Shown: positions 10,361-62,630 of the stretch, in pieces
Position numbering within the stretch: the first letter of the stretch is position 1
How the letters are laid out: the number at the start of each line of letters is the position of its first letter
Assembly: GCA_030424845.1 (NCBI GenBank)
Contig: JAUHWC010000004.1
Location: forward strand, 1-64,000
DNA: 64,000 nt
Origin: Alphaproteobacteria bacterium
GTDB taxonomy: Bacteria; Pseudomonadota; Alphaproteobacteria; Sphingomonadales; Sphingomonadaceae
Direction of reading: 5' to 3'
Notes under the pieces: generated by a model
Seen by the model: the letters and a program-made list of their open reading frames with translations, nothing else
Databases searched by the model: none
What the model was told of the DNA's origin: nothing
Program-made: the position numbers and the translations under genes

Positions 10361-10546
10361 GGCCTGACGCTATGGGCAATTGATCCGCTCTGCAACACTC
10401 TTGGTTGAAAATGTAACCTTCGTTCCGGAAGCGGGCAGATCCCGCGCTGGACGACATGATCTTGGCAAACGCGGACATCTATTGCAGGATCAAGCCCATA
10501 AGAGGAAAGCGGAGACGCCAGGTCTCCGAGCGAGGGGATGGTCATC

Positions 10547-13174
10547 ATGCACTTGCAGTCGAAACTGCTGCTTCTTCCAATGCTCCTGTCCGGTGCTGCC
10601 TTGCCCGGCATGGTTGTCGGCGCTTCCGCACAGGACAATCATGCTCATGCCGACATGGCGGCTGATGCGGCAGAGGTTCCGGCCGAGGCAAGGCAGGTGC
10701 GCTGGTCCGATCCGGCTGCCTGGCCTGATGGCAAGGTCCCTGCCGAAGGCGATGCGGTGCTGATCCCGCGCGACGCCGACGTGCTGCTGGATATCGATCC
10801 GCCGGCCCTGCGCAGCCTGACGATCGACGGCAAGCTGACCTTTTCCGACGAGATCGATATCGAGTTGGAGACCGACTGGATCTACCTGCGCCGCGGCGAA
10901 CTGCACATCGGCAGCGAGGAACAGCCGCACACGCGCAAGGCCACGATCACCCTGACCGACAAGGTGCCTGGCGAGGACATCAACACGATGGGTGACCGCG
11001 GCATCATGCTGATGGGCGGCACGCTCAGCATGCATGGCAATCGCGAGAACAGCTGGACCAAGCTGGCCCGCACGGCCGAGGCGGGCTCAGCAGAAATCGA
11101 AGTGCTCGATGCCAGCGGCTGGCGTGCAGGGGACGAGATCGTCCTTGCCTCCACCGACTTCAATCCGCGGCAGGCCGAGAAGCGGACTATTGCCGCCATC
11201 AACGGCAATGTCATCACGCTCGACAGGCCGCTCGACTACATGCATTTCGGCGAGATCACCTTCGGCGTCGACCAGCGCGGCGAAGTAGGCATGCTCACGC
11301 GCAATATCCTGGTCCAGTCTTCCGAGGATTCGCTGGAGAATTACTTCGGCGGCCACATCATGGCGATGCTCTCTCCCGATGTGCGGATTTCCGGTGTCGA
11401 GCTTTACCGCATGGGCCAGCACATGAACCTGGCGCGCTATCCGATGCACTGGCACCTGGTCGGCGAAGGACAGGGCCAGTATATCCGCAACTCCGCCATC
11501 CATGACACCTACAACCGCTGCGTGACGGTGCACGGCACCAACAATGTGCTGGTGGAAAACAACGTCACCTTCAACAATGTCGGCCACTGTTTCTTCTTGG
11601 AGGACGGGGTAGAAACGGGCAATGTCTTCGCCCGCAACCTGGGCATCCAGACCAAGTGCCATCCCACCCTGCCCTGCGATCCCACCAACCTTGGCCCGGG
11701 CCGGGGCCTGACCGGGATGGCGGGCCAGCGGGCGGAACATGTCCTGCTGCCTTCGGACAATACGGCGGCAACCTTCTGGATCACAAATCCGGACAATACC
11801 TATCGCGACAATGTGGCCGCAGGTTCGGACCAGATCGGCTTCTGGTTCGCCTTGCCGGTGCATCCCACCGGCGCCTTCGAAGGCACGCCCATCAGCGAGA
11901 GCACCTGGCCGCGCCGCACGCGCCTGCGCGAATTCAGCGGCAATACCGCCCATTCCAATTTCGACGGCCTGATGTTCGATCGCGGGCCCAACCCGGACGG
12001 CACTTTCAGCGTGGGCGGCAGCAACTACCACTTCCCCGTGGCTGACGGGGCAGACCCGAACGGCGAACCGCTGGTTTCGCATTTCGAGAGCTTCACCGGC
12101 TACAAGAACCGCAACGGCGCGGTCTGGGGGCGCGGCGAGCTGCACCTGTTCACCAACCTGCGCGTGGCAGACAACGCCATCGGCTTCACCCATGCCGCAT
12201 CGGCGGTGGGCCGTGCAGCCTACACCTCCAAGATCGTTGATTCGATTTTCGTGGGCGAGAGCGACAACATCGGCAACCCGACCACGCCGGAAGAGATCGC
12301 CTATGGCCGCAGCCTGCCCGGCGAAAGCGCGGATTTCCCGATCCGCGGCTATGAGTACTATGACATGCGCCACGATGTGGAAAACACGCATTTCGTGAAC
12401 TTCGTGCCCAACACGCTGCGCGATGCCGGGGCGATCTCCTACCTCATGTACACCAGTTTCGGCATGAGCACGGAAAACGCCATCGAAGGGGCCACTTTCG
12501 AAAACGCCAAGCCGGTTTCCTTCCCGCCCGTCGTGCGCCGCTGGGCTTCCGACTTCGGCCGGCAGAACGCCTGGCGCGGAGCGGCGATCCACGACAAGGA
12601 CGGTTCGGTCGGCGGCGTGCCGGGCGGCTTCATCGTGCTCGACAACGGCATCGCCTCTGACGAGGAGGCTTGCGAGATCAAGCCCGACTGGGGCGCAGCG
12701 GTTTGCAGGGGTGATTTCGGCCATTTCGGCCTGGGCGGCAACATGGGCTTCGGCAGCGCGCCGATCACCGATCCGATCATGCTCAGCCGCAACGGCAGGC
12801 GCTGGGAATACACCGGCCAGACGACAATCCGCAGCGGTGCGGAAGTGCGCGTGGAAACCAGCCGCGAGAGCCTCTCGCTATCCTTGCGGGAAATGGATGA
12901 TGGGTCATGGGTCCTGTTCGAGCTGCCCGGCTTCACCACCACTGCCGGTGGCGTGCAGCAGGACAGCCTTGAGGCCTTGCGTGAAGCCGGGGAAACCGGC
13001 TGGTTCCAGGGCGAGGATTCCCTGTGGGTCAAGCTGGTGGTCGACAATGGTGCAGGCGAAAGCGTGCAGATCGGCAGGCCCGGTTTCGGTGTCAGCACCG
13101 TCGGCACCGGTCCGGGCGGTGCCTTTGACGCCGGCGCAACGCTGGATGTGAGCAGGCAGGTCCGACCCGGCTGA
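10547..13174 (+). CDS. CEMIP/TMEM2-like secreted protein with G8 domain and beta-helix
   Basis: The intact member of the pair, about 875 residues. A signal peptide (about residues 1-30, ending GASAQ) is followed by a G8 domain (about 52-170: WSDPAAWPDGKVPAEGD, LTIDGKL, TLSMHG) and a right-handed beta-helix region. Residues about 297-355 (RYPMHWHLVG, NRCVTVHGTN, GHCFFLEDG) and the later NNTAATFWI-like block match, from memory, the signature of animal CEMIP and TMEM2, which act in hyaluronan breakdown. The C-terminal block (EMDDGSWVLF) is shared with the copy at 1-1394. ATG 10547 is preferred to ATG 10538 because the GAGGGG site abuts the latter. Enzymatic activity in this bacterium is inference only. 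Confidence 0.85.
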   Translation: MHLQSKLLLLPMLLSGAALPGMVVGASAQDNHAHADMAADAAEVPAEARQVRWSDPAAWPDGKVPAEGDAVLIPRDADVLLDIDPPALRSLTIDGKLTFSDEIDIELETDWIYLRRGELHIGSEEQPHTRKATITLTDKVPGEDINTMGDRGIMLMGGTLSMHGNRENSWTKLARTAEAGSAEIEVLDASGWRAGDEIVLASTDFNPRQAEKRTIAAINGNVITLDRPLDYMHFGEITFGVDQRGEVGMLTRNILVQSSEDSLENYFGGHIMAMLSPDVRISGVELYRMGQHMNLARYPMHWHLVGEGQGQYIRNSAIHDTYNRCVTVHGTNNVLVENNVTFNNVGHCFFLEDGVETGNVFARNLGIQTKCHPTLPCDPTNLGPGRGLTGMAGQRAEHVLLPSDNTAATFWITNPDNTYRDNVAAGSDQIGFWFALPVHPTGAFEGTPISESTWPRRTRLREFSGNTAHSNFDGLMFDRGPNPDGTFSVGGSNYHFPVADGADPNGEPLVSHFESFTGYKNRNGAVWGRGELHLFTNLRVADNAIGFTHAASAVGRAAYTSKIVDSIFVGESDNIGNPTTPEEIAYGRSLPGESADFPIRGYEYYDMRHDVENTHFVNFVPNTLRDAGAISYLMYTSFGMSTENAIEGATFENAKPVSFPPVVRRWASDFGRQNAWRGAAIHDKDGSVGGVPGGFIVLDNGIASDEEACEIKPDWGAAVCRGDFGHFGLGGNMGFGSAPITDPIMLSRNGRRWEYTGQTTIRSGAEVRVETSRESLSLSLREMDDGSWVLFELPGFTTTAGGVQQDSLEALREAGETGWFQGEDSLWVKLVVDNGAGESVQIGRPGFGVSTVGTGPGGAFDAGATLDVSRQVRPG

Positions 13175-36032: not shown

Positions 36033-36923
36033 TTAGCGCTTGAGTTCATAGAAGGCAGCGATCTGCTTCCATGCCTCATCCGCCGTTTCGCAGCGGGTGA
36101 ACAGGTCAAGGTCATCGGCACTGATCGTGCCTTCTTCCACCAGCGCTTCGAAATTGATCACCCTGTCCCAGAAGTTCCTGCCGAACAGCAGGATCGGGAT
36201 CGGCTTCATCTTGCCGGTCTGGATCAGGGTCAGCAGCTCGAACAGCTCATCGCAAGTGCCGAAACCGCCCGGGAACACCGCCACGGCCCGCGCGCGGATC
36301 AGGAAGTGCATCTTCCTCAGCGCGAAATAGTGGAAATTGAGCGACAGGTACGGCGTGACATAGGAATTAGGCGCCTGTTCATGGGGCAGCACGATATTGA
36401 GGCCGATGCTTTCGCCGCCTGCCTCGCTGGCACCGCGATTGGCGGCCTCCATGATCGACGGCCCACCACCGGAGCAAACCACGAACTGGCGCATGCCGTC
36501 CTCGATGATGGACTTTTCGCTGACCAGTTTCGCCAGCTTGTGCGCCTCGACGTAGTAGCGCGATTTCTCCGCCAGCTTTTCGGCGATCTTCTTCTTTTCC
36601 GGCGTGTCGGCCTTGGCAAACACCTCGTCGATCTGCTCCGGTGCCGGGATGCGGGCAGAGCCATACATCACCAGTGTGGAACCCACGCGCGCCTCGTCCA
36701 GCAACATGGTGGGTTTAAGCAGTTCCAGCTGGAAGCGCACCGGCCGCAGCTCCTCGCGCAGCAGGAAATCGGTATCGCGGAAAGCCAGCTTGTACGTGGG
36801 ATGCCGGGTCTGCGGCGTGTCCGAAACGTCGGCATCGGCAAAGCCGGCTTCCATTTCCGCCGGGTAGAACTTGCGGTTGACCAGGTTGTGGTCGTGCTCA
36901 CGTTCGTCGGGGCGCTTGTTCAA
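36033..36923 (-). CDS. LOG family (TIGR00730-type) Rossmann-fold protein
   Basis: A 296-residue protein of the LOG family, which includes cytokinin-riboside 5'-monophosphate phosphoribohydrolases and nucleotide-cleaving proteins. The signature PGGFGTCDELFE is clear, with SGGGPSIMEAANRGA before it. The N-terminal extension of about 80 residues is longer than minimal LOG proteins and is common in this bacterial subgroup. The start is a TTG at 36923: GGGAGG sits seven bases before it, while the other in-frame TTG at 36938 lies within that site. The thiD gene converges on it four bases away. Confidence 0.87.
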   Translation of the reverse strand: MNKRPDEREHDHNLVNRKFYPAEMEAGFADADVSDTPQTRHPTYKLAFRDTDFLLREELRPVRFQLELLKPTMLLDEARVGSTLVMYGSARIPAPEQIDEVFAKADTPEKKKIAEKLAEKSRYYVEAHKLAKLVSEKSIIEDGMRQFVVCSGGGPSIMEAANRGASEAGGESIGLNIVLPHEQAPNSYVTPYLSLNFHYFALRKMHFLIRARAVAVFPGGFGTCDELFELLTLIQTGKMKPIPILLFGRNFWDRVINFEALVEEGTISADDLDLFTRCETADEAWKQIAAFYELKR

Positions 36924-38271: not shown

Positions 38272-39279
38272 TTAGGCAGAACAACTCGCACCGCCCAGCA
38301 CGCAGAAGCGCGCGCAATGGGGATGGTTGAGCGGAACCGACCGGTCAGCCTCTGCGAGGGTTTCCCCAAGGTCAAAGCCGGGCGAATAGGGCAGCAGGGT
38401 GCAAGCGACCACGCGGGCACGCTCCTCGCCCTTGCGATGCACGACCATGCGGCTGCTGGCACACATCACATCGGATGGGGACTTGCCCAGGATACCCCAG
38501 CAAGCGGTGGTGATCTCAGGCACGTCGGCGCTCTCGTCCATTTCCGGGAACAGGACAAGGCGCGCCGGATCGCCGGCATCGATGGTGATGCCTTCGCGGG
38601 CGAACAGCGCGGCATAGGCAGCACGTGCTGCAGCCATGTCCTCGCCTGCCAATGACCGGCCCGCCGCAGCGATTGAAAATCCCTGCGCGGAAAGCCATTG
38701 CAGCCCTTCGATCATCGGCTGCCAGCTGTTCGGCCCGCGTTCGCCTTCGTGCACGGCGCAAGTGTGGTGATCGATCGAAACGCGCAGCGTCAGCCTGGTG
38801 CCGAAGCGCTCTTTCAACGCCAGAAGCGCATCCTCGTGCCGGCGCATGGGCTTCATCGCATTGGTCAGGACCAGCGCCTCGTGCCCGCGTTCCAGCGCGT
38901 CCTCCAGCATGGACAGGAAATGCGGGTTCATGAAGGGCTCGCCGCCGGTGAAGCCGATCTCGCGCACCGCGCGGCCCGAGGCTGCAATCTCCTCGTAGAA
39001 GCGGGCCGCCTCCCCTGCCGACAGGTAGACCAGCGCATCATTGGTGGGCGAGCTTTCGATGTAGCAGCTGGCGCAGGCAAGGTTGCACAGCGTGCCCGTG
39101 TTCAGCCACAGCGTATCGAGCTTTTCCAGCGCCACGGTTGCCCGTTCGCTGCCATCCGCCGTAATCGCCGGATCGACGAACTTTCCTGCCTTCAGCGGCA
39201 CCTTGCCGGCAATGGCAAAGGGGGAAGGCCCGGTGGGAGCATTGCGCGTCTGCGGGCGGTTCTTGCTGCGCGTAGCCAT
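38272..39279 (-). CDS. Radical SAM enzyme of the arsenosugar-type cluster, not canonical ArsS
   Basis: A 335-residue radical SAM protein from the ATG at 39279. The [4Fe-4S] motif CNLACASC lies at residues 65-72, with FTGGEPF for SAM binding. The C-terminus is cysteine-rich (TTACWG, VMCASSRM, VACTLL, HCARFCVLGGASCSA), which suggests one or more auxiliary clusters. It does not contain the CN-x-C-x-HCH-type motif and DAGP block I associate with ArsS. Its start overlaps the disulfide oxidoreductase stop by one base, so the two are translationally coupled and lie divergent to arsM. The likely role is a SAM-dependent step in arsenic modification, but this is inferred from context. Confidence 0.72.
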   Translation of the reverse strand: MATRSKNRPQTRNAPTGPSPFAIAGKVPLKAGKFVDPAITADGSERATVALEKLDTLWLNTGTLCNLACASCYIESSPTNDALVYLSAGEAARFYEEIAASGRAVREIGFTGGEPFMNPHFLSMLEDALERGHEALVLTNAMKPMRRHEDALLALKERFGTRLTLRVSIDHHTCAVHEGERGPNSWQPMIEGLQWLSAQGFSIAAAGRSLAGEDMAAARAAYAALFAREGITIDAGDPARLVLFPEMDESADVPEITTACWGILGKSPSDVMCASSRMVVHRKGEERARVVACTLLPYSPGFDLGETLAEADRSVPLNHPHCARFCVLGGASCSA

Positions 39280-40694
39280 CACAGGAACCTGCGCAGTCTT
39301 GCCACGAGGCGGGCATATCTCCTGGGCAGCGCGGCGAACACGGTTGGCTCCCACGCCTTGAAGGCCAGCGCCTTGATGATCTCCGATCGCGTGGGATAGG
39401 CGATCACCGCGCTGCCCAGCGCAAAGGTCGATGCCTTGCCCGTGATCGCTTGCGTCAACGGCAACAGCAGTTCACCTGCATTGTGGCCCACGATGCTGGC
39501 ACCGAGCACCTTCTTGCCCTTCAGCACCAGCTTCATGTGGCCGGCCACCTCGCCTTCGGCCACGGCGCGATCATTGTGGTCAAACCCCTCGCGCACCACG
39601 CTAATGGCATCGCCGTGCCGGGCGCGCGCCTCCGCCTCGGTCATGCCGATCTGCGCCACTTCGGGCGAGGTATAGGTACACCAGGGCAAGGCGCGCCAAT
39701 CCACCTTGGTCGGCAGGCCCGTGGCAATCTCCAACGCGACGTTGGAGCCTTCATAGCCCGAGACATGGGTGAGCCGCGGCCCATCGCGGCAATCGCCGAT
39801 GGCATAGATGTTCTTCACCGAGGTGCGGCGGCGCGCATCCACCTTGATGCCGTTGCGCCCCAGTTCCACGCCCAGTTCCTCCAGCCCGAAGCCGGAGGTG
39901 CGCGCCTTGCGCCCGACCGCCAGCAGCAGGTGCGAGCCGGACAGGCTTTCCCCGCCGTCGGTTTCCAGCGTGATCGCGCCCGTCGTCCCGGCGACTTTCG
40001 CGGCCTTGCCATCGATGAAGCGCACACCTTCGCGCTCCATCTGCCCGCGCACGACGGCAACCGATTCCGGATCGTCGCGCCCCAGCAAGGGGCCGGGATT
40101 GATGATGGTGACTGCACTTCCGAGGCGGCGAAAGCTCTGCCCCATTTCCATGCCGATCACACCGCCGCCAATGATCAGCAGGTGTTCCGGCTGCTCGGTC
40201 AGCTCGAAAAGGTTCTCGTTGGTCAGGCAGGGAACATCCGCAATCCCCTCGATTGGCGGAATGACAGGTTCGGAGCCGGTGGCGATCACCATGCGCGGCG
40301 CGGCAAGGGTGCGGCCTGCGACCTCCACCGTGTATCGATCCCGGATCGTGGCGTGATCGCGAAACACCTCGCAACCCATGCCTTCGAAGCGCTCTTGCGA
40401 ATCATGCGGGGCAATCGCGGCAATGGCATCGTGAATGTGCCTGTGCACGCCCATCCAGTCCACTTGCGGCGGCGCCAGCCCGACACCCAGCCGTTTCTCC
40501 TCGCGCGCTTCAGCCGCCCGGCGGGCAGAGGAAATCAGGGCCTTGGAAGGAACGCACCCGTTGTTCAGGCATTCGCCGCCCATCGCCCCCTTCTCGACAA
40601 GCGCCACCTGCAAGCCGAACAGTGCGCAGCCGCCGGCCGCTGTCAGCCCGGCGGCCCCGCCACCGATCACGATCACGTCATGCGAATAATTCAT
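39279..40694 (-). CDS. Class I pyridine nucleotide-disulfide oxidoreductase, mercuric-reductase-like
   Basis: A 471-residue flavoprotein from the ATG at 40694. FAD-binding VIVIGGGAAGLTAA, the redox disulfide GECLNNGCVPSKAL (Cys42 and Cys47), NAD(P) fold LIIGGGVIGMEMGQSF and the C-terminal dimerisation domain are present. Where dihydrolipoyl dehydrogenase and glutathione reductase have the catalytic His of HPT-x-SE, this protein has YPTRSE; mercuric reductase also has Tyr there. It is coupled to the radical SAM gene and divergent from arsM. Reducing arsenic species or an arsenic-bound thiol is a plausible but unproven job. GGGGAA precedes the ATG. Confidence 0.82.
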   Translation of the reverse strand: MNYSHDVIVIGGGAAGLTAAGGCALFGLQVALVEKGAMGGECLNNGCVPSKALISSARRAAEAREEKRLGVGLAPPQVDWMGVHRHIHDAIAAIAPHDSQERFEGMGCEVFRDHATIRDRYTVEVAGRTLAAPRMVIATGSEPVIPPIEGIADVPCLTNENLFELTEQPEHLLIIGGGVIGMEMGQSFRRLGSAVTIINPGPLLGRDDPESVAVVRGQMEREGVRFIDGKAAKVAGTTGAITLETDGGESLSGSHLLLAVGRKARTSGFGLEELGVELGRNGIKVDARRRTSVKNIYAIGDCRDGPRLTHVSGYEGSNVALEIATGLPTKVDWRALPWCTYTSPEVAQIGMTEAEARARHGDAISVVREGFDHNDRAVAEGEVAGHMKLVLKGKKVLGASIVGHNAGELLLPLTQAITGKASTFALGSAVIAYPTRSEIIKALAFKAWEPTVFAALPRRYARLVARLRRFL

Positions 40695-40782
40695 TGTTCC
40701 CCAAGGTAACCGAAATGCGGTGCCATGCGACAATAATCCTGTCTATGCTCACGCCATTCGCACGAAAGGGACAGGCGGTTTC

Positions 40783-41835
40783 ATGAATCTGGAAAATTCG
40801 CAGGATTATTACGGCAAGGTTCTGGGCGGCAGCGCGGACCTGCGCACCGATGCATGCTGCACCATGGACGCCCCTGCGCCTAAAATCCTGGCAGCGCTTG
40901 CCAATGTCCATCCCGAAGTGAAGGCGCGCTACTATGGCTGCGGCCTCGTCGTCCCGCAGGCCATCGAAGGCTGCAACGTGCTCGACCTTGGTTCCGGTGC
41001 CGGACAGGATGCCTACCTGCTGGCGCAGATGGTGGGACCGAACGGCAGCGTTACCGGTGTGGATGCAACACCCGAACAACTCGCCGTGGCGAACAGGCAT
41101 CTCGACTGGCATGCCGAACGCTTCGGCTTCTCCAATGTCCGTTTCGTGGAAGGCGATATCGAGAAGCTGGAGGAGCTGGACCTTGCGGCGGAAAGCTTCG
41201 ACGTGATCGTGTCCAACTGCGTGATTAACCTTGTCGCCGACAAGGAAGCCGTCTTCCGCGCTGCACACCGCCTGCTCAAGCCCGGCGGCGAACTCTATTT
41301 CTCCGATGTCTATGCCGATCGCCGCGTTCCCGCACACCTGCTGAACGATCCCGTGCTGCATGGAGAGTGCCTGTCCGGCGCGCTCTACTGGGGCGACTTC
41401 GACATGCTGGCCAAGCGCGCAGGCTTTGCCGATCCGCGCCTCGTCACGGACCGTCCGCTCGGCATCAACGATGCCGAGGTGGCAAGGAAACTGGAGGGCA
41501 TCTCCTTCGTGTCTGCAACCTATCGCCTGTTCAAGCTGGCAGGGCTGGAACCGCAATGCGAGGATTATGGGCAGGCCGTAATCTACCAGGGTACGGTGGC
41601 GGGTGAGGAGCAGATGTTCCACCTCGACAACCACCACGCCATCGAACGCGGGCGCATCTTCCCCGTTTGCGGCAATTCGTGGCTGATGCTGGCCGAAACC
41701 CGCTTTGCCCCGCATTTCGAGTTCATAGGGAATTTCGACACCCATTACGGCGTATTCCCGGGCTGCGGCACGGCCGTTCCCTTCGGACAGAGCGATGCCA
41801 ACCCGGTCAAGAGCGACGCCGCACCGTGTTGCTGA
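40783..41835 (+). CDS. arsM: Arsenite methyltransferase of the arsenosugar-biosynthesis type
   Basis: A 350-residue SAM-dependent methyltransferase. SAM-binding VLDLGSGAGQDAYLLAQMVG and SNCVINLVADK define the fold. Cys53 (YYGCGLV), Cys146 (SNCVIN) and Cys196 (GECLSG) match the arsenite-binding cysteines of ArsM; the 50-residue spacing of the last two is the same as in characterised ArsM proteins. An N-terminal pair (ACCTMDAP, Cys25-26) and a terminal CC add more thiols. Residues near 255-345 (LDNHHAIERGR, PVCGNSW, APHFEF) are the extended C-terminus of the arsenosugar-associated subtype. It would convert As(III) to methylated forms that the radical SAM enzyme could use. Confidence 0.88.
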   Translation: MNLENSQDYYGKVLGGSADLRTDACCTMDAPAPKILAALANVHPEVKARYYGCGLVVPQAIEGCNVLDLGSGAGQDAYLLAQMVGPNGSVTGVDATPEQLAVANRHLDWHAERFGFSNVRFVEGDIEKLEELDLAAESFDVIVSNCVINLVADKEAVFRAAHRLLKPGGELYFSDVYADRRVPAHLLNDPVLHGECLSGALYWGDFDMLAKRAGFADPRLVTDRPLGINDAEVARKLEGISFVSATYRLFKLAGLEPQCEDYGQAVIYQGTVAGEEQMFHLDNHHAIERGRIFPVCGNSWLMLAETRFAPHFEFIGNFDTHYGVFPGCGTAVPFGQSDANPVKSDAAPCC

Positions 41836-41848
41836 GGGTTTCGGGCTG

Positions 41849-42850
41849 TTGAACATCCTCGTTACCGGCAGCGCCGGGCTGATCGGCGGAGAAGTCTGCG
41901 CACGCCTTGTGGCAAGCGGCCATGCGGTTATCGCAATGGTCCGCCGCACCCGTGAAGTGCGCGGCAATGACGGGGAGCTTGTAGCCGTAACCCGCATTGT
42001 ATCGGGCGATGTGACACTGCCGATGATGGGCCTCGATCCCGCCGACCATGACATCGACCTGGTGATCCACTGCGCCGCCTCGCTCACCTTTGACGCGCCA
42101 GAGGAGGAACTGGAGCGCGACAACGTTCAAGGCACCGCCCATGCGCTTGCCTTTGCCCGCGCTGCCGGTGCGCGCTTCCTGCATGTCAGCACGGCCTATG
42201 TCTGCGGCCTGGCCCAAGGCGATATCCGCGAAGGACCGGTCCCTGCGGGCACGCGCTTTGCCAATAATTACGAGGCGAGCAAGGCCCGGGCCGAGGCGTT
42301 GGTGGAGGCAAGCGGCCTGCCCTTTGCCATCGCCCGCCCGTCAATCACGCTGGGCCATTCACGGACCGGACAGATCCGGGACTTTCCATCCCTGTGCAAC
42401 GTCTTTCGCCTGATGGCGCGGGGCAAGGTCACGGTGTTTCCCGCAGACCCTGCTGCCACGCTGGACCCTGTCCCCATCGATCACGTTGCCGAAGGCATCA
42501 CTCGCATCGCTGCGCGCATGGAACAAGCGCAGGGCGGCCATTTCCACCTTACCGCCGCCAGCCCCCTGCCCGCCGCCGCCCTGGCGCATGGAGTGGCGAG
42601 GGTGGCGCATTTCCCCGATCCGCAAGTGGTACTGCCGCAAGATTATGAACCGGCATCTCTCAGCCTGGTGGAGCAGCGCGTGGCTGGGCGCATGCTGGCA
42701 ACCTTTGGAACCTATTTCACCCGCAATCCGCGTTTCGCTGACGCGAAGCTACGCGCCCTGACCGGCCTGTCATGCCCTGCCACCGATGATGCGTGGCTGG
42801 ACCGGCTGATCGCTTATGGCATTGCTTCGGGATATCTGCCCGGCGCCTAG
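41849..42850 (+). CDS. Extended SDR-family oxidoreductase/epimerase in the arsenosugar cluster
   Basis: About 333 residues from a TTG at 41849. The Rossmann fold begins ILVTGSAGLIGGEV, the active-site Tyr-x3-Lys appears in NNYEASKARAEAL, and HVSTAYV supplies the Ser. The C-terminal half (ARPSITLGHSRTGQI, DPVPIDHV) is typical of extended SDRs acting on nucleotide-sugars or carrier-linked acyl groups. The start codon is 13 bases after the arsM stop, so the two are co-transcribed; a longer frame from 41795 overlaps arsM and is rejected. Its substrate is unknown. The sugar moiety of an arsenosugar is a possible target. Confidence 0.75.
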   Translation: MNILVTGSAGLIGGEVCARLVASGHAVIAMVRRTREVRGNDGELVAVTRIVSGDVTLPMMGLDPADHDIDLVIHCAASLTFDAPEEELERDNVQGTAHALAFARAAGARFLHVSTAYVCGLAQGDIREGPVPAGTRFANNYEASKARAEALVEASGLPFAIARPSITLGHSRTGQIRDFPSLCNVFRLMARGKVTVFPADPAATLDPVPIDHVAEGITRIAARMEQAQGGHFHLTAASPLPAAALAHGVARVAHFPDPQVVLPQDYEPASLSLVEQRVAGRMLATFGTYFTRNPRFADAKLRALTGLSCPATDDAWLDRLIAYGIASGYLPGA

Positions 42851-43569
42851 CGCACGTCGGGATAAAGCCGCTCAAGCCTCTGCCGCACACCCATAGCCCA
42901 CAGGAAGCCGACCTTCAGGTATATCCAGTTGGCTTTCAGCGCACCCCATTCGGCGATGCGACGGTCACTGGTCTCGATGCGGCGGGGAACCAGTTTCACC
43001 CGCCCCAGGCTGGCCAGTTTCACGCAGATATCGGCTTCTTCCATCACCCGCGCGGACGGGTCGCAGCCGCCCACGGCAAGGAACTGGTCGCGGCGGAAGA
43101 ACATGCCATGGTCACCGAACAGCAGCCGCACGCCTTTCGCGAACAGGTGCGGGCGGAACAACAGCGGCGCGTACCATGTCTTGGCCCAATTATGCGCCGT
43201 GGTACCCCAGCGCGTCCTTTCCGGCCCCTTGATGACCGGCGTGAAACTGGCGAGCGCAATCCGCTGATCCGCCAGCGTATCGGCGATCACCTGCATCGCA
43301 TCGCCGGGCGGATAGGTATCGGCATGCAGCACCAGCACCGTCTCGCCACTGGCAGCCTCCACCCCGGCATTGATCTGCAGGCCCCGCCCGCGGATAGTCT
43401 CGACCACCCGCCAGCCATACCCTCGGGCCAGCTCCACACTGGCATCCTCGCTGCCACCATCGACGCACAGCACTTCATGAGGTGCCGGATCAAGCCTGGC
43501 GAGCACTTCGGCGAGGCGCGGCAGGGCGGCCTCCTCGTTGAGCATGGGGATGACGATGGAAATGCGCAT
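42847..43569 (-). CDS. TIGR04283-type glycosyltransferase of arsenosugar clusters
   Basis: A 240-residue family 2 glycosyltransferase. SIVIPMLNEEAALPRL starts the GT-A fold, and LCVDGGSEDASVEL and VLHADTYPP carry the substrate and metal-binding regions; MEEADICVKLASLGRV follows. The family recurs next to arsM in arsenosugar clusters. Its 3' end overlaps the convergent SDR gene by four bases and its start shares a base with the upstream TIGR04282-type gene (TGATG), so the two glycosyltransferases are one operon. Confidence 0.85.
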   Translation of the reverse strand: MRISIVIPMLNEEAALPRLAEVLARLDPAPHEVLCVDGGSEDASVELARGYGWRVVETIRGRGLQINAGVEAASGETVLVLHADTYPPGDAMQVIADTLADQRIALASFTPVIKGPERTRWGTTAHNWAKTWYAPLLFRPHLFAKGVRLLFGDHGMFFRRDQFLAVGGCDPSARVMEEADICVKLASLGRVKLVPRRIETSDRRIAEWGALKANWIYLKVGFLWAMGVRQRLERLYPDVR

Positions 43570-44156
43570 CAGCCGGCAAGCTCTGGATAATGGAGGAGGT
43601 CTTCAGGCCTGTCGCAATCTCCCAGAGGTTGCAGCATCAGGGGGGAAGAACCGCGGCCGGCAAGGCGGACAAGTGTTTCCTCCAGCACGGTCTCTTGCCC
43701 CCAGGCCATGTCATGAAAGAGGAATGGGACGGGTTCGTTGAAACCCATGAGGTAATATCCGCCATCAAGGGCCGGTCCGATCACCGTTTGGCTCCTGGCC
43801 AGCGCGCTTGCCGCTTGGCGCAGGCAGAGCGCATGCAAGCCGGGGATATCAGCGCCCAGCAGGATGGCGGGTGCGGGCACGCGGGCCAGCCTGTCGCCAA
43901 GGTCGCCATCGCCCTGATCCACCAGTTCCACATCATCGCCCAGCCAAGCTGCAAAGTCCGCGCGCGGGGCACCGGTGAACCAGACGGCAAATGGCACTCC
44001 GCTTGTCCGGATGGTGGCAATGGTGCGTTCCACCAGCTTGCGATGCAGGTCAGCCGCACCTTGTTCGCCAAGCGCCGGGACAAGCCTGGTCTTTGCCTTT
44101 CCCGGCGTGGGATATCTCGCAAACAGCGCGATCTTCGGCGGGTGCGATGGCATCAT
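43569..44156 (-). CDS. TIGR04282-type glycosyltransferase of arsenosugar clusters
   Basis: A 195-residue protein starting MMPSHPPKIALFARYPTPGKAKTRL, the hallmark of the TIGR04282 family. LGADIPGLHALCL and GPALDGGYYLMGFNE follow, giving a nucleotidyltransferase-like fold. It starts at 44156 after an AGGA site; a long in-frame extension upstream is antisense to the sterol-desaturase gene and rejected. It is the first gene of the glycosyltransferase pair and is divergent from the membrane hydroxylase gene 42 bases away. The pair would build or attach the sugar. Confidence 0.87.
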   Translation of the reverse strand: MMPSHPPKIALFARYPTPGKAKTRLVPALGEQGAADLHRKLVERTIATIRTSGVPFAVWFTGAPRADFAAWLGDDVELVDQGDGDLGDRLARVPAPAILLGADIPGLHALCLRQAASALARSQTVIGPALDGGYYLMGFNEPVPFLFHDMAWGQETVLEETLVRLAGRGSSPLMLQPLGDCDRPEDLLHYPELAG

Positions 44157-44198
44157 GGGATGTGTCCTAGACTGTAGACGCGGCTTTGGCGAACCCCC

Positions 44199-45017
44199 AT
44201 GTTTGGACCTGTCATGGCATCGCGATTCCTCAAGCTGGCCGGCTGGGCCGTCACCATCGGGGCGGTGGGCGCGATTGCCCTGGCCGAACGCCGGCATCCC
44301 TTGCGCAGCCGGAAGCGTGACGTGGTCCCACGCACGGTCCGCAACCTTGCCATGGGGGCCACTTGCCAGGCGATGATCACGATCAGCGAGGCTCCGGCCA
44401 CCCGGGCCATCGCGAGGCGCAACGCCAGCCGGAGACGCGGTTTGCAGCACTGGCTGGGCAGCGGCGTGATCGGCAAGGCGGCAGCCTTCCTGGCGATGGA
44501 TTACGGTTTCTACCTCTGGCACATCGCCACCCACAAGGTGCCCTTCCTGTGGCGCTTCCACCGCGTCCACCATGTCGACCCGGACATGGACATGAGCACG
44601 GCCCTGCGCTTCCACTTCGTCGACATGCTGGTATCCCTGCCCTGGCGGCTGGTGCAGGTGCGCGTATCCGGCATCGGCCCGCAGATGCTGAAGAACTGGC
44701 AATTGTTCTTCCTCCTGTCCGTGCTGTTCCACCACTCGAACACAAGGCTGCCCAAGGGGTGGGACAAGGCACTCAGCAGGATCATAACGACACCAAGGAT
44801 GCACGGCATCCACCACAGCCGGGACCTGTCCGAGATGGACAGCAACTGGTCGAGCGGCATCGCGGTGTGGGACCACTTGCACGGCACCTATCGCGACGAT
44901 GTGGCCCAGGAGGAAATCGTGATCGGCGTGGACGATCCCATGGCCGAACGCGATGTGGCGATCGGGCCTGCCCTGCTCGCCCCGGCACGATCCCCGGCCA
45001 CTCGCGGCGAAGGCTGA
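44199..45017 (+). CDS. Sterol desaturase / fatty acid hydroxylase family membrane protein
   Basis: A 272-residue integral membrane protein with the di-iron histidine boxes HIATH, HRVHH and HGIHH, spaced as in the fatty acid hydroxylase superfamily. The N-terminus has a span (LAGWAVTIGAVGAIALAE) and others follow. Possible substrates are carotenoid-type or acyl lipids. The gene is divergent from the glycosyltransferase operon 42 bases away; whether it belongs to the arsenosugar pathway or is just adjacent is unknown. Start 44199 or 44214; neither has a strong site. Confidence 0.8.
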   Translation: MFGPVMASRFLKLAGWAVTIGAVGAIALAERRHPLRSRKRDVVPRTVRNLAMGATCQAMITISEAPATRAIARRNASRRRGLQHWLGSGVIGKAAAFLAMDYGFYLWHIATHKVPFLWRFHRVHHVDPDMDMSTALRFHFVDMLVSLPWRLVQVRVSGIGPQMLKNWQLFFLLSVLFHHSNTRLPKGWDKALSRIITTPRMHGIHHSRDLSEMDSNWSSGIAVWDHLHGTYRDDVAQEEIVIGVDDPMAERDVAIGPALLAPARSPATRGEG

Positions 45018-58564: not shown

Positions 58565-60355
58565 CTAGTCTTTCCTTATGTCCTCTGACTTGCGCCTGGG
58601 CCCGCGCTCGCGCGGCTCCGTCACGATGTGTTCGCGGGCCGCGTGCATGTTGCCTTCTTCAAGCTGGCGTTCCAACCGCTTCCAGTCGCTCTGGCGATAG
58701 GTGTCCTCGGCGCTGTCCAGCTCCTCCTGGCTCAGCCCCACTTCCTCCAGCGCCATCAATGCCATCCGCAGTGCAGATTCGAACATCTCGCGCATCAGGA
58801 ACGTCTCGCCATTGCCGTGCAGGCGCATCACGCTGAGCCGGTCATAGGTGCGTAGGTACACAGCGGCATTCGGGAACGCCTGCGTCACGGACGCGATCAG
58901 GCCCGGTTCGATATGTTCGTCGGAAATGCAGAACATGATCAGCTGGGCATCGCCTGCCCCCGCCTGCCGCAGGATGTCGATACGCGTCCCGTCGCCGTAA
59001 TAGACCTTGCTGCCGAACTCTCCCGACAGGTCGATCTGCTGCACCTTGTTATCGACCAAGGTCACGGACACACCGCCGGACATCAGCGTTTGCGCCACGG
59101 TCTGGCCGAAACGGCCATACCCGATCACCACGGCATTGGCGTGATCGTTCTCGGGTTCCGGCCGGACTTCGCCGGATCCCCGGACCGGTTCCCGACGAAT
59201 ACGGGCGGTGGCCTTCATCAGGAAGGGCGTGGCGATCATGGACAAGGTGATGATCGCGCCGAACAGGCTGGCGACATCGCTTTCGATGACCCCGGCAATC
59301 TGCGCCTGCGTATACAGGACGAAGCCGAATTCACCCCCCTGGCTGAGCAGCAAGCCCAGCGCCAGTGCGCGACGCCAGCGCATCTTGAACAGCATTCCCA
59401 GGCCGGTGATGATGGCGGTCTTGAGCGCGATGAGGAGCAACGCCATGCCGATGACGAACAAAGGCCGTTCGGCGATGGCGCCAATGTCCAGCATCATGCC
59501 GACAGCGAGGAAGAACAGGCCGAGCAGGATGGAACGGAAAGGCTCGATATCCGCCTCCAACTCGTGTCGATAGGGCGTATCGGCCAGCATTACACCGGCG
59601 ATGAAAGCCCCAAGGGCAGTCGATAGACCGACCATTTCCATCACCAGCGCCGATGCGCCCACAGTGAACAGGCCGGCCACGACGAACATCTCGCGCTCGC
59701 CCAGGCCGCCGATCAGCCGGAACAGCGGACGAATGACAAAGCGACCGGCAACGATCAGCCCCAGGAGCACGGCAACGGTCAGCAGCACCAATTGCCAACC
59801 GGGCATTCTCTCTTCCGCCGCACCGGAGTTGCCCAGGGCGGCAACGATGGTGATCAGCGGAATGATCGACAGGTCCTGGAACAGCAATATGGCAAAGGCA
59901 CGCTCGCCGAACGGGGTTTTCAGCCGCCCCCCGGATTGCAGCATGGGCAAGACCTGCGCCGTAGAGGAAAGGCCAAGTGGCAAGCCGATCGCAAGGGCGG
60001 CCTCCAGCGGGTATCCTGCAATTGCAAGCACGGTGGCGAACATCACCAGGCCGCAAAGCACCACTTGCACCAACCCGAGCCCGAAGATCTCGGACCGCAT
60101 GCGCCACAGCCGCGCCGGGTTCAGCTCGAGGCCGACGATGAACAGCAGCAGCACGATGCCAAGTTCGGCAATGCCGATGATGGTCTCCGCATTGCCGGCA
60201 AGGCCAAGCACCTGCGGTCCCACCACGGCCCCGGCAATCAGGTATCCAAGGGTCGCCCCCAGACCGAGCTGGCGGAACAGCAAGACGAAGGCGAGCGCAA
60301 AGCCCAGCAGGATCGCGCCGTCATGCAGGAAGTCCGCAGCAGCATGCACTTCCAT
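58565..60355 (-). CDS. CPA2-family cation:proton antiporter (KefB/KefC-like) with RCK domain
   Basis: A 596-residue membrane protein starting [13 protein letters not shown] at 60355. Twelve or so spans form the Na+/H+ exchanger domain, then comes a TrkA/RCK_N nucleotide-binding domain ([18 protein letters not shown]). An open frame further upstream is not needed. KefB/KefC export potassium in response to glutathione adducts; this protein may do the same. It converges on the EAL gene with 26 bases between and lies 28 bases downstream of the ZntB-like gene. Confidence 0.88.
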
Positions 60356-60383
60356 CAGCCGGACACCTTCGGCAAGCAGCGCA

Positions 60384-61412
60384 TCACAACCATTTCCATC
60401 GCCAGAAAAGGTAGAGCAGCACGGCAAAGATTCCCGTGCACAGCGCAACCACTTCCCAGAAGGCCAAGGGATCATCCATCCCCGGCACGCCGCCGACATT
60501 GATGCCCAGCAAGCCGGTGAGGAAGCTGAGCGGCAGGAAGATGCCCGCCACGATTGTCAGTATGTAGGTCGCCTGTTCGTTGCGGGCGATCGAGCGGCCG
60601 CGGATATCATCCATCAGCACGACCGCACTTTCCTTGCTGATATCGAGGTCTTCCAGGTAGCGCCGCAACCGGTCGATGCTTTCGGCTATCTCGCGCCGGT
60701 CATGGTCCTCGAACCATGGCGGGGCATAGCGACTGATCGCCTCCAGCGCCTCGTGCATCGGCCCCATGTGCCGCTTCAGGCCAAGGCAATTGCGGCGGAT
60801 GGTGGCAATCCTGTCCAGCGCTTCTTCGGCATCATCGTCCACATCGCGCTCTTCGAGCTCGTCAAGGTGGTCATTCATGTCGACGATCGAGCGGTTCATG
60901 CGGGTGATCATCGCTTCGGTGATCTCGGTGATCAGCGCGCCGCAGTCATTGGGCCCCGCCTCGCGCCGGTCGATCATCTTCAGCACGAGGCGCGGTGTCT
61001 GCAACGGTTGCTTGCGCAAGGTGACAAGGCGCTTGCCGTCACACCACAACTGGATCGACAGCATGTCTTCCGGTTGCGCGCCGGGGTTGAAATTGATCCC
61101 CCGCAGCGTCGCCACCAGCGTATCGCCTTCGCGGAAAGCACGCGGCCGGGTCCTGTCGCTGACGAGCAGTTCGCGCGTGGGTTCGGGAATGGCGAGATCC
61201 TCCAGCCACTCGTCCACGCCGGGTCGATTGCGACACAGGTGGACCCACAGCACCTCGCCTTCGCGATCGGGTTGCCAGCGGCGCGCCTCGTCCCAGTCCA
61301 GCGGCCGTCCGGCGCCCTTGCCGTCCAGCACGCGGCCGAAGATCATGGGATTGTCCGGCGGGCAGCCCTCCTCGACCTGGGGCACACCCGGCTGTTCGTC
61401 CATCTTGGTCAT
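60384..61412 (-). CDS. zntB: CorA/ZntB family divalent cation transporter
   Basis: A 342-residue protein with a long cytoplasmic domain and two C-terminal spans ([20 protein letters not shown] and the final one). The pore motif GINVGGVPG is the ZntB form of the CorA GMN signature. ZntB exports or imports Zn2+ with protons. In-frame ATGs at 61430 and 61403 are alternatives to 61412; ribosome sites are ambiguous. The antiporter gene follows on the same strand 28 bases away, and ispG is divergent. Confidence 0.85.
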
Positions 61413-61481
61413 GGCTCCACCATGCCGCAAAGTCGCACGCCTGTCATTGCCCCTTCATCCGCGCAGGACTATATAGCTGTC

Positions 61482-62630
61482 ATGTCCTCATCCGTACGCC
61501 CGTGGCGCGATATCGATCGCCGCAAGTCCCGCCAGATCATGGTCGGCAATGTTCCCGTTGGTGGCGATGCGCCGATCACGGTGCAGACCATGACCAACAC
61601 CCCGACAGAAGACGTCGCGGCCACGATCGACCAGATTCGCCGTTGCGAGGATGCCGGTGCCGACATCATCCGCGTGTCGTGCCCGACCGCGGAATCGACC
61701 GAGAATTTCGACAAGATCACCAGGGCATCCAACATCCCGATCGTGGCGGATATCCACTTCCACTACAAACGGGCGCTGGAAGCGGCGGACAAGGGCGCGG
61801 CCTGCCTGCGCATCAATCCCGGCAATATCGGCTCTTCCGAGCGGGTGGCCGAAGTCGTCCGTGCGGCCAAGGCCAATGGTTGTGCGATCCGCATCGGCGT
61901 GAACGCAGGTTCCCTCGAAAAGGACCTGCTGGAAAAATACGGCGAGCCCTGCCCGGAAGCGCTGGTCGAAAGTGCGCTCGATCATATCAAGCTGCTGCAG
62001 GACCATGACTTCCACGAATACAAGGTGGCGGTGAAGGCATCCGACGTGTTCCTTGCCGTGGCAGCCTACATGGAACTGGCAGACGCGGTGGATTGCCCGC
62101 TGCACCTTGGTATCACCGAGGCTGGCGGCCTCATCGGAGGAACGGTCAAGAGCTCCATCGGTCTTGGCAATTTGCTGTGGGCCGGGATCGGCGACACGAT
62201 CCGCGTATCGCTTTCGGCAGAACCGGAACAGGAAGTGCGGGTCGGGTTCGAGATCCTCAAGTCGCTCGGCCTGCGAACCCGCGGCGTGCGCGTGGTCTCC
62301 TGCCCCAGCTGCGCGCGGCAGGGTTTTGACGTGATCAGGACAGTGCAGGTGCTGGAGGAACGCCTGCAGCACATCAAGACGCCGCTATCGCTTTCCGTTC
62401 TCGGTTGCGTCGTCAACGGACCCGGCGAAGCGCGCGAAACCGATATCGGCATCACCGGCGGCGGCGCAGGCAAGCACATGGTCTACCTTTCCGGCGTGAC
62501 CGACCATCACGTGCAGGACCAGGACATGATCGAACACATCGTGTCGCTGGTGGAAAAGAAGGCTGCCGAGATCGAGGAGGGCATGATCGATGCCGGAAAA
62601 GCCGAAGGTGCAGTCGAAGCCGCGGAATAA
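61482..62630 (+). CDS. ispG: (E)-4-hydroxy-3-methylbut-2-enyl-diphosphate synthase
   Basis: A 382-residue [4Fe-4S] enzyme of the MEP isoprenoid pathway. The N-terminus [20 protein letters not shown], a barrel core with INPGNIGS, and the cluster ligands CPSCARQG and GCVVNGPGE are as in bacterial IspG. The start ATG 61482 ([15 protein letters not shown]) gives the correct length; the much longer open frame upstream is rejected. Its last 41 bases overlap the next gene. Confidence 0.95.

Follow-up and report, generated by a model that had tools for sequence, protein, structure and literature searches.

Which enzyme supplies the 5'-deoxyadenosyl step in an arsenosugar-type gene cluster whose radical SAM protein does not look like ArsS? 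The question is raised by a locus within a 64,000-nucleotide stretch of a Sphingomonadaceae genome (GenBank assembly GCA_030424845.1, contig JAUHWC010000004.1, positions 1 to 64,000), hereafter called the window. A preliminary description of this DNA had grouped genes for ArsM, TIGR04282 and TIGR04283 proteins and a radical SAM protein (rSAM) together and had proposed that an enzyme other than ArsS may supply the step. Indeed, every gene it described is found at the locus (Table 1), the genes are grouped as claimed, and the reading frames are intact. The most likely start codon of the rSAM is the ATG at 39279, which shares one base with the TGA of the oxidoreductase gene. We consider it moderately probable that the cluster encodes a pathway to arsenosugars (or arsenosugar lipids) and that the place of ArsS is taken there by a second and distant family of radical SAM enzymes. 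The proposal that a non-ArsS rSAM within an arsenosugar-type set supplies the ArsS step is plausible and this part of the preliminary description stands, whereas the oxidoreductase is not peculiar to the cluster, as set out below.

Table 1. Features of the cluster in the window, in the order rSAM–oxidoreductase, ArsM–SDR, TIGR04283–TIGR04282 and hydroxylase-like gene
Feature	Position	Strand	Remarks
Radical SAM protein (rSAM)	38272..39279	-	335 aa; CNLACASC and C260, C273, C293, C322, C326, C333; proposed ArsS replacement
Pyridine-nucleotide disulfide oxidoreductase	39279..40694	-	471 aa; CLNNGC; mercuric-reductase/lipoamide-dehydrogenase relative
Divergent intergenic region, oxidoreductase-rSAM pair versus arsM-SDR	40695..40782	.	
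ArsM arsenite methyltransferase	40783..41835	+	350 aa; best solved relative 5evj, 335 bits
Extended SDR, thioester/fatty-acyl reductase type	41849..42850	+	YEASK motif; start codon uncertain
TIGR04283 family-2 glycosyltransferase	42847..43569	-	
TIGR04282 protein, predicted nucleotidyltransferase fold (CofC/FbiD, IspD, KdsB, GlmU type)	43569..44153	-	
Fatty acid hydroxylase/sterol desaturase-like protein, facultative member	44199..45017	+	HIATH, HRVHH, HGIHH

The rSAM is not filed as ArsS, because it falls below the curated cut-off and its core motifs differ. The search against the ArsS model TIGR04167 that had been suggested at the outset gave 57.1 bits, well under the cut-off of 300, and the same model found no ArsS over the cut-off in the window's own genome (best 57.2 bits). 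The core motifs CNxxCxHCHVxAxP and TGGAPE are invariant in 14 aligned ArsS sequences, whereas the window rSAM has CNLACASCYIESSP and TGGEPF and, in addition, an extra conserved Cys (C260). The earlier statement that it lacks the ArsS motifs is nevertheless true of the core only, since a C-terminal Cys/GxSC motif is common to both. More specifically, the H-C-C-GxS(C/U) motif is present in the window rSAM (HCARFCVLGGASC), and it was observed in 82 of 99 rSAM gene calls and in all 19 ArsS gene calls versus none of 79 generic radical SAM proteins. Counted by alignment row, the motif is found in 17 of the 19 rows of alignment A1 (the window and 18 of 40 loci) and in 32 of the 47 rows of A2 (the window and 46 of 80 named loci; L208, L222, L230, L233, L236, L241 and L254 were left out and L201 was trimmed). 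Gene calling in 20 loci gave 19 ArsS frames, of which 14 make up the ArsS alignment A3. An excerpt of PMC13188914 gives GxxU for TIGR04167. Selenocysteine in the rSAM was considered and not retained: a single match (G087) has a TGA, and the protein taken from there starts after this codon and has no internal stop.

The profiles of rSAM and ArsS align over 270 columns (E 6e-17), and with the 47-sequence rSAM profile the alignment ends at C273. When the C-terminal domains are compared by themselves the alignment is poor (probability 10.6), which speaks against the ArsS-like reading, so the claim of homology in this part is based on the full-length alignment together with the motif. By these comparisons the rSAM is judged to be a distant relative of ArsS. 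The solved structures nearest to its predicted model are BlsE, SkfB and SuiB (Z 18-19), which are not informative on the substrate, and an ArsS structure was absent from the match lists for this model. The rSAM frames of viral contigs served as controls; on such contigs none of the best 80 of at least 319 confirmed loci exceeded 36% identity to the rSAM, the matches covering part of its length.

The conservation of the neighbourhood was studied in 36 family loci that were selected for the presence of rSAM. Of these, 20 come from the 43 genomes with rSAM, the majority being those of highest similarity, and the other 16 are the named loci that ranked highest in similarity; three of the 36 are repeat contigs, leaving 33 distinct loci. 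The observed gene content within 7 kb exceeds what chance would give: the oxidoreductase, SDR, TIGR04283 and TIGR04282 genes occur in all 33, the hydroxylase-like gene in 21 and ArsM in 17. Three loci with sphingomonad titles (L192, L209 and L254, of which two lie on short contigs) are without the SDR and were placed among the 80 other rSAM loci. In 61 of these 80 no partner gene lies within 7 kb, which counts against the arsenosugar reading, and in several, such as L223 (Ruegeria), rSAM adjoins genes of the zwf-pgl-pgi type. Relatives of the rSAM do recur beside arsM and TIGR04282/TIGR04283 genes in distant genomes; the orders in other classes are GT4282-GT4283-ArsM-rSAM-VTT/oxidoreductase (L097), MTAP-rSAM-ArsM-GT4282 (L098) and rSAM-ArsM-GT4282 (L267). 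A LOG-type protein encoded at 36033 was considered as a further pathway part and discarded, with no match in 40 loci (E 1e-8).

The window ArsM aligns with the solved ArsM 5evj, including four Cys. Its assignment to the arsenosugar subtype is not borne out by the curated model NF038099 (95 bits, cut-off 400), although homologues that are 63-64% identical adjoin canonical ArsS in L136 and lie some 5 kb from ArsS in L144. In a draw of 149 genomes of the own family, rSAM was observed in 43 and ArsM of the window type in 27, all of which are within the 43; the two genes lie within 3.4 kb of each other in 25 of the 27 and far apart in the remaining two. Among the 38 genomes of the phylum draw described below that have the window's ArsM type (here E below 1e-90), 16 have rSAM, 18 have ArsS, 4 have neither and none has both, so that 34 carry one or the other. 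In a tree of 39 hand-chosen ArsM rows the partner changes four times, and at least two of these changes are forced by well-supported branches.

Over 398 genomes of the phylum, rSAM was observed in 37 and ArsS in 116, with no genome having both (raw counts, phylogeny not corrected for; at most five candidates scored per genome, seven for TIGR04283; thresholds E 1e-15 for rSAM, 1e-40 for ArsS and 1e-30 for ArsM and TIGR04283). As the genomes drawn from the own class yielded no ArsS, the separation of the two enzymes is for the most part a difference between classes, and its within-class test relies on only seven rSAM genomes of other classes, four of them labelled gamma. TIGR04283 accompanies both enzymes genome-wide, being present in 36 of the 37 rSAM genomes (including all 30 of the own class, where three further genomes have it without rSAM) and in 102 of the 116 ArsS genomes.

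The window TIGR04282 protein passes its curated cut-off (174.7 versus 134 bits), and the TIGR04283 protein falls just short (171.6 versus 182 bits; E 1.8e-50) and weakly resembles polyprenyl-phosphate sugar transferases. Although NCBI names the TIGR04282 family a glycosyltransferase, the predicted model (pLDDT 95.8) has a nucleotidyltransferase fold over the whole chain. It superimposes on 3cgx (Z 24.6, 1.9 A, 192 residues aligned), 7p97 (Z 19.0, 2.5 A, 179) and 6bwh (Z 17.1, 2.6 A, 178), and the 50 structure matches listed are nucleotidyltransferases by title or sequence profile, with an entry named putative NDP-sugar transferase in first place. The predicted fold is like that of CofC/FbiD, IspD, GlmU and KdsB over 157-192 residues (Z 12.5 to 24.6), and the sequence profile matches CofC, 3-phosphoglycerate guanylyltransferase and KdsB. 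We therefore predict that TIGR04282 is a nucleotidyltransferase, this being derived from a predicted fold, and a shared fold is not proof of function. Alignment A4 contains the window sequence and 22 of 27 TIGR04282 frames. Three groups of rSAM loci have a phosphorylase of the MTA-phosphorylase (MTAP) type nearby, as do 3 of 20 ArsS loci; in the window's genome such an enzyme is encoded on another contig. The predicted nucleotidyltransferase and the phosphorylase suggest which steps may follow that of ArsS.

The analysis directly shows gene content, co-occurrence, non-overlap with ArsS and distant homology, and the folds are predicted; the chemical steps of the following route we infer throughout. 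ArsM would methylate As(III) to a trivalent dimethylarsenical, and where arsM is absent the dimethylarsenical may be taken up instead. The rSAM would cleave SAM and, like ArsS, join the 5'-deoxyadenosyl group to arsenic. An enzyme of the MTA-phosphorylase type could then remove adenine to give arsenoribose-1-phosphate, which TIGR04282 would turn into an NDP sugar, after which TIGR04283 would move the arsenoribose onto an acceptor, either glycerol or a lipid. The FAD disulfide oxidoreductase may keep arsenic and thiols reduced. A wider proposal, which we advance tentatively and hold to be somewhat less than evenly probable, is that an unnamed second family of arsenic-adenosylating rSAMs serves the Alphaproteobacteria and some other Pseudomonadota instead of ArsS, that phosphorolysis by the MTA-phosphorylase relative, nucleotidyl activation by the misnamed 'glycosyltransferase' TIGR04282 and transfer by TIGR04283 then follow, and that carriers without arsM use methylated arsenic made by others.

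The carriers without ArsM count against this reading and could also be read differently. Window-type ArsM is absent from 16 of the 43 family rSAM genomes, another ArsM being found at E 1e-20 in one of the 16 and in none of the other 15, and from 21 of the 37 rSAM genomes of the phylum, where 6 of the 21 have another ArsM-like match, one of them over the cut-off. Moreover, no ArsM was found in a 1.2-Mb genome rated complete, which has kept rSAM and TIGR04283 together with a VTT protein. This persistence of rSAM and TIGR04283 would fit an rSAM that acts on a non-arsenic substrate, for example another 5'-deoxyadenosyl or ribosyl compound destined for TIGR04282 and TIGR04283, with ArsM having joined some lineages separately. 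We regard this as unlikely, as window-type ArsM never occurs without rSAM in the family draw, the two genes are joined again in the three other-class loci, the neighbours of rSAM are shared with ArsS, and no ArsM was detected in 22 of the 116 genomes that have ArsS, albeit this is less frequent than for rSAM.

The SDR and the hydroxylase-like protein might instead build the lipid part of a different organoarsenical, such as an arsenolipid, with the rSAM forming a non-ribosyl carbon-arsenic bond. The constant presence of the SDR in the family loci is in line with this, its best solved relatives being the thioester reductase MxaA and, in third place, a fatty acyl-CoA reductase, as are the frequent hydroxylase-like gene and the weak likeness of TIGR04283 to polyprenyl-phosphate sugar transferases. 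We nevertheless judge it quite improbable, for the SDR was found in none of 20 ArsS loci and the hydroxylase-like gene in one, and both are absent from four other-class rSAM loci. For the same reason the two are not part of a shared core; the SDR looks lineage-specific, and the shared core of the rSAM and ArsS loci is formed by the sugar-handling genes. Finally, the many other rSAM loci with no partner nearby might suggest that unrelated genes came together by chance or are passively linked, or that the locus has decayed. This is scarcely credible, given that one gene set recurs in all 33 distinct family loci fetched and is assembled again in other classes, that TIGR04283 is nearly constant in rSAM genomes and that the window frames are intact.

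An excerpt of the review PMC12159101 names two bacterial radical SAM routes to carbon-arsenic bonds, namely the adenosylation step by which oxo-arsenosugars are made and the reaction of arsinothricin synthesis. In the open-licence literature searched we found no paper on this rSAM at arsenic loci, nor any description of an MTA phosphorylase or a nucleotidyltransferase in arsenosugar synthesis. So far as these searches show, the steps after the rSAM (phosphorolysis, nucleotidyl activation and transfer by TIGR04283) are undescribed there. If the proposal is true, a further adenosylating family would widen the expected arsenosugar makers to a class without ArsS in the genomes drawn. The cluster points to one particular enzyme and to later steps that can be tested, and with the proposed chain of phosphorylase, nucleotidyltransferase and glycosyltransferase a few purified proteins would be enough to test how an arsenosugar arises from the adenosyl intermediate.

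Three known systems invite comparison. A match of the rSAM to a known unrelated family, which would have spoken against the pathway, was looked for and not found: the best NCBIfam hit is the Rv1681 family (NF049973) with 86.1 bits against a cut-off of 380. In this comparison by model score the match is limited to residues 55-230, and the radical SAM core is common to both. That the rSAM scores higher on this model (86) than on that of ArsS (57) does count against the ArsS-like reading. ArsL of arsinothricin biosynthesis is likewise a radical SAM enzyme beside an ArsM and forms a C-As bond. An excerpt of PMC8552651 describes it as a protein of 428 residues with three conserved Cys, accompanied by the gene arsQ for a putative GntP-related transporter. 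By this description the rSAM, with 335 residues and six further conserved Cys, is set apart from ArsL, and no transporter as in the order arsQ-arsM-arsL is found among the cluster genes. The canonical ArsS system shares several features with the locus. The disulfide oxidoreductase had earlier been suggested as a possible pathway part not described for the canonical pathway, yet 12 of 20 canonical loci have a relative no more than 7 kb from ArsS, and all seven long forms tested are fused to a VTT domain, three beside ArsS and four beside rSAM. Hence rSAM keeps ArsS-like genomic company, as TIGR04282, TIGR04283, the FAD oxidoreductase (also as VTT fusion), ArsM and the MTAP-type phosphorylase are neighbours of both enzymes, which furthermore have in common the radical SAM core, a similar length and the C-terminal H-C-C-GxSC motif.

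The radical SAM protein of the window (335 aa; with its relatives, rSAM) is encoded among seven intact genes in four blocks that alternate in strand. G+C content differs little between this stretch (0.643) and the window as a whole (0.639), so that composition does not indicate recent import. An Acr3-type arsenite pump (388.5 bits; cut-off 282.8) is encoded on another contig of the same genome, and among named organisms Aurantiacibacter, Qipengyuania, Citromicrobium and others are the closest relatives. The G8 and CEMIP domains found elsewhere in the window are known from animal hyaluronan-related proteins.

Cluster genes and other features of the window
Feature	Positions	Strand	Remark
Radical SAM protein	38272-39279	minus	
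Disulfide oxidoreductase	39279-40694	minus	one-base overlap with the rSAM gene
ArsM	40783-41835	plus	
SDR	41849-42850	plus	
TIGR04283	42847-43569	minus	
TIGR04282	43569-44153	minus	
Fatty-acid-hydroxylase-like gene	44199-45017	plus	
878-aa protein	10538-13174	plus	G8 and CEMIP beta-helix domains
Oligopeptide ABC transporter parts, amidase, fused hydantoinase A/B	3193-23417		all in a span of about 20 kb, which may serve peptide or hydantoin breakdown
IspG	59601-62630	plus	frame open about 630 codons ahead of the conserved domain, overlapping an antisense KefC-type gene; true start probably far downstream of 59601

The preliminary description had set the radical SAM protein apart from ArsS (TIGR04167), and the profile search bears this out: the NCBIfam model of ArsS gave 57 bits against a cut-off of 300, over the core region only, a score by which rSAM is ruled out as an ArsS. 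The Rv1681 family model gave 86 bits (cut-off 380), again over the core region only, and rSAM exceeded the cut-off of no NCBIfam model among the best 25 of 53 matching. A genome-wide search of the organism returned no ArsS over the cut-off, and no description of rSAM was found in the literature searched. The CxxxCxxC motif and C260, C273, C293, C322, C326 and C333 are invariant across 19 aligned relatives, C260 and C333 being nearly invariant in an alignment of 47 rSAM sequences. We regard the cluster as a variant on an established type of pathway, with a putative new enzyme family taking over the key step.

A distant kinship with ArsS is nevertheless detectable. Profile-profile comparison of rSAM with 14 ArsS sequences aligned 270 columns (probability 98.8, E 6e-17) and brought the C-terminal cysteines of both near register; with the 47-sequence rSAM profile the alignment ended just past C273, and when the C-terminal parts were compared alone the last 17 columns aligned with low confidence. 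At the C-terminus, 82 of 99 rSAM and 19 of 19 ArsS gene calls carry the pattern H-x(0-2)-C-x(2-3)-C-x(3-5)-G-x-S-C; it was also seen in one of 2090 other gene calls (an over-long rSAM frame in locus L227) and in none of 79 generic radical SAM proteins from viral contigs. An HMM of rSAM scored ArsS at 42-55 bits and the generic proteins at a median of 13.8 (maximum 44.6), while the ArsS HMM gave 29-59 bits for rSAMs and at most 18.0 for the generic proteins; as these controls were picked by similarity to rSAM and left out the Rv1681 family, the scores show that rSAM and ArsS are related without singling out ArsS as the closest relative. PMC13188914 lists TIGR04167 among selenoprotein families and gives GxxU as its site, which we infer to correspond to GSSC in the aligned ArsS and GASC in rSAM.

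Recurrence of rSAM relatives beside arsM, raised in the preliminary description, was found within the family and beyond it. Among 149 genomes of the Sphingomonadaceae, rSAM is present in 43 and close relatives of the window's ArsM in 27, all of these among the 43 (hypergeometric 7e-19, kinship ignored); the two genes are no more than 3.4 kb apart in 25 of these genomes and distant from each other in G001 and G095. In other lineages they adjoin in the orders GT4282-GT4283-ArsM-rSAM-VTT/oxidoreductase (L097), phosphorylase-rSAM-ArsM-GT4282 (L098) and rSAM-ArsM-GT4282 (L267, its TIGR04283-like match being weak), where GT4282 and GT4283 denote the TIGR04282 and TIGR04283 genes. L195 and L197 read GT4283-GT4282-rSAM, and in L207, L209 and L232 the oxidoreductase, VTT and both TIGR genes lie near rSAM. 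On the other side, just 19 of the 80 rSAM loci not counted in the family set lie within 7 kb of a partner gene; the remaining 61 lack one at that distance.

Canonical ArsS loci show the same partners: within 7 kb of ArsS (20 loci) we found the FAD oxidoreductase 12 times, TIGR04282 8, TIGR04283 7, and ArsM and the MTA-phosphorylase type 3 times each. The disulfide oxidoreductase, earlier taken for a possible addition to the canonical pathway, is therefore a companion of ArsS as well. Fusion of oxidoreductase and VTT was seen in all seven long forms tested, at ArsS loci (L130, L136, L144) and rSAM loci (L096, L097, L209, L246). The SDR, present in 33/33 distinct family loci retrieved and 0/20 ArsS loci, is a local addition. 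Two more families stand beside both ArsS and rSAM (L096, L132, L135, L147, L195, L205, L213); one weakly resembles sodium/solute symporters (36 bits), the other is without a match. The MAG behind L213, whose rSAM shares 61% identity with that of the window, is titled Klebsiella pneumoniae, probably a mislabel. In 16-18 loci (L082, L223 and others) rSAM adjoins genes of glucose-6-phosphate dehydrogenase, 6-phosphogluconolactonase and phosphoglucose isomerase groups, checked by Pfam in L082; partner families were not found near rSAM in L082 and L223.

Across 398 genomes of the Pseudomonadota, rSAM occurs in 37, ArsS in 116 and both in none, a non-overlap that is largely a between-class difference because ArsS was found in no Alphaproteobacteria genome of this draw; its within-class test rests on 7 rSAM genomes of other classes. 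TIGR04283 is found in 157 genomes: 36 of the 37 with rSAM, 102 of the 116 with ArsS and 19 with neither; 30 of the 33 alphaproteobacterial TIGR04283 genomes carry rSAM. The 38 genomes with this ArsM type comprise 16 with rSAM, 18 with ArsS and 4 with neither, the last being drafts (81-93% complete). The ArsM tree suggests that ArsM has switched its partner between rSAM and ArsS: parsimony counts 4 switches, and well-supported branches account for at least two, with partners labelled per genome rather than by adjacency and long branches flagged by the program.

The main difficulty is rSAM without ArsM. This ArsM type is missing from 16 of the 43 family rSAM genomes (one has another ArsM) and from 21 of the 37 in the phylum draw (6 have another ArsM-like match, one over the cut-off). 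ArsS also occurs without ArsM, though less often: no ArsM close to this type is present in 51 of 116 ArsS genomes, 29 of which have another and 22, many of them drafts, none detected. Either the ArsM-less rSAM strains rely on an external supply of methylated arsenic, or their rSAM acts on another substrate. In G496, an alphaproteobacterial single-contig genome of 1.2 Mb rated 100% complete, rSAM overlaps a VTT-domain gene (L093) and TIGR04283 is present (E 1e-33); ArsM was not found in the genome. Because ArsM is missing from so many rSAM genomes, our confidence in the ArsS-step reading stays moderate.

Arsenic adenosylation in oxo-arsenosugar synthesis is assigned to ArsS in PMC12159101. By position, company and motif, rSAM most likely performs this ArsS-type step, and an arsenosugar-type pathway with a second, distant radical SAM family in place of ArsS is somewhat favoured. 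In this pathway rSAM would adenosylate arsenic as ArsS does, and phosphorolysis, nucleotidyl transfer and glycosyl transfer would follow. Since 5'-deoxy-5'-dimethylarsinyl-adenosine is a structural analogue of methylthioadenosine, a phosphorylase is the enzyme type expected next. All six tested members of the phosphorylase family match S-methyl-5'-thioadenosine phosphorylase models best (5 over the TIGR01694 cut-off), and the family lies within 7 kb of rSAM in 8/33 distinct family loci, 3/80 others and 1/4 other-class loci, and of ArsS in 3/20; the single match in the window's genome lies on a different contig. These phosphorylases may simply be housekeeping enzymes.

Among solved enzymes, 5evj is closest to the window's ArsM (335 bits), and four cysteines with a role in arsenic binding align between the two. 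TIGR04283 shows low similarity (20-31 bits) to polyprenyl-phosphate sugar transferases, and the closest matches of the oxidoreductase are mercuric reductase and lipoamide dehydrogenase. TIGR04282 matches the putative NDP-sugar transferase 3cgx (162.7 bits), CofC (27) and 3-phosphoglycerate guanylyltransferase (26). Although the family is called glycosyltransferase, its predicted fold (pLDDT 95.8) resembles nucleotidyltransferases (3cgx, Z 24.6, 1.9 A over 192; 7p97, Z 19.0, 2.5 A over 179).
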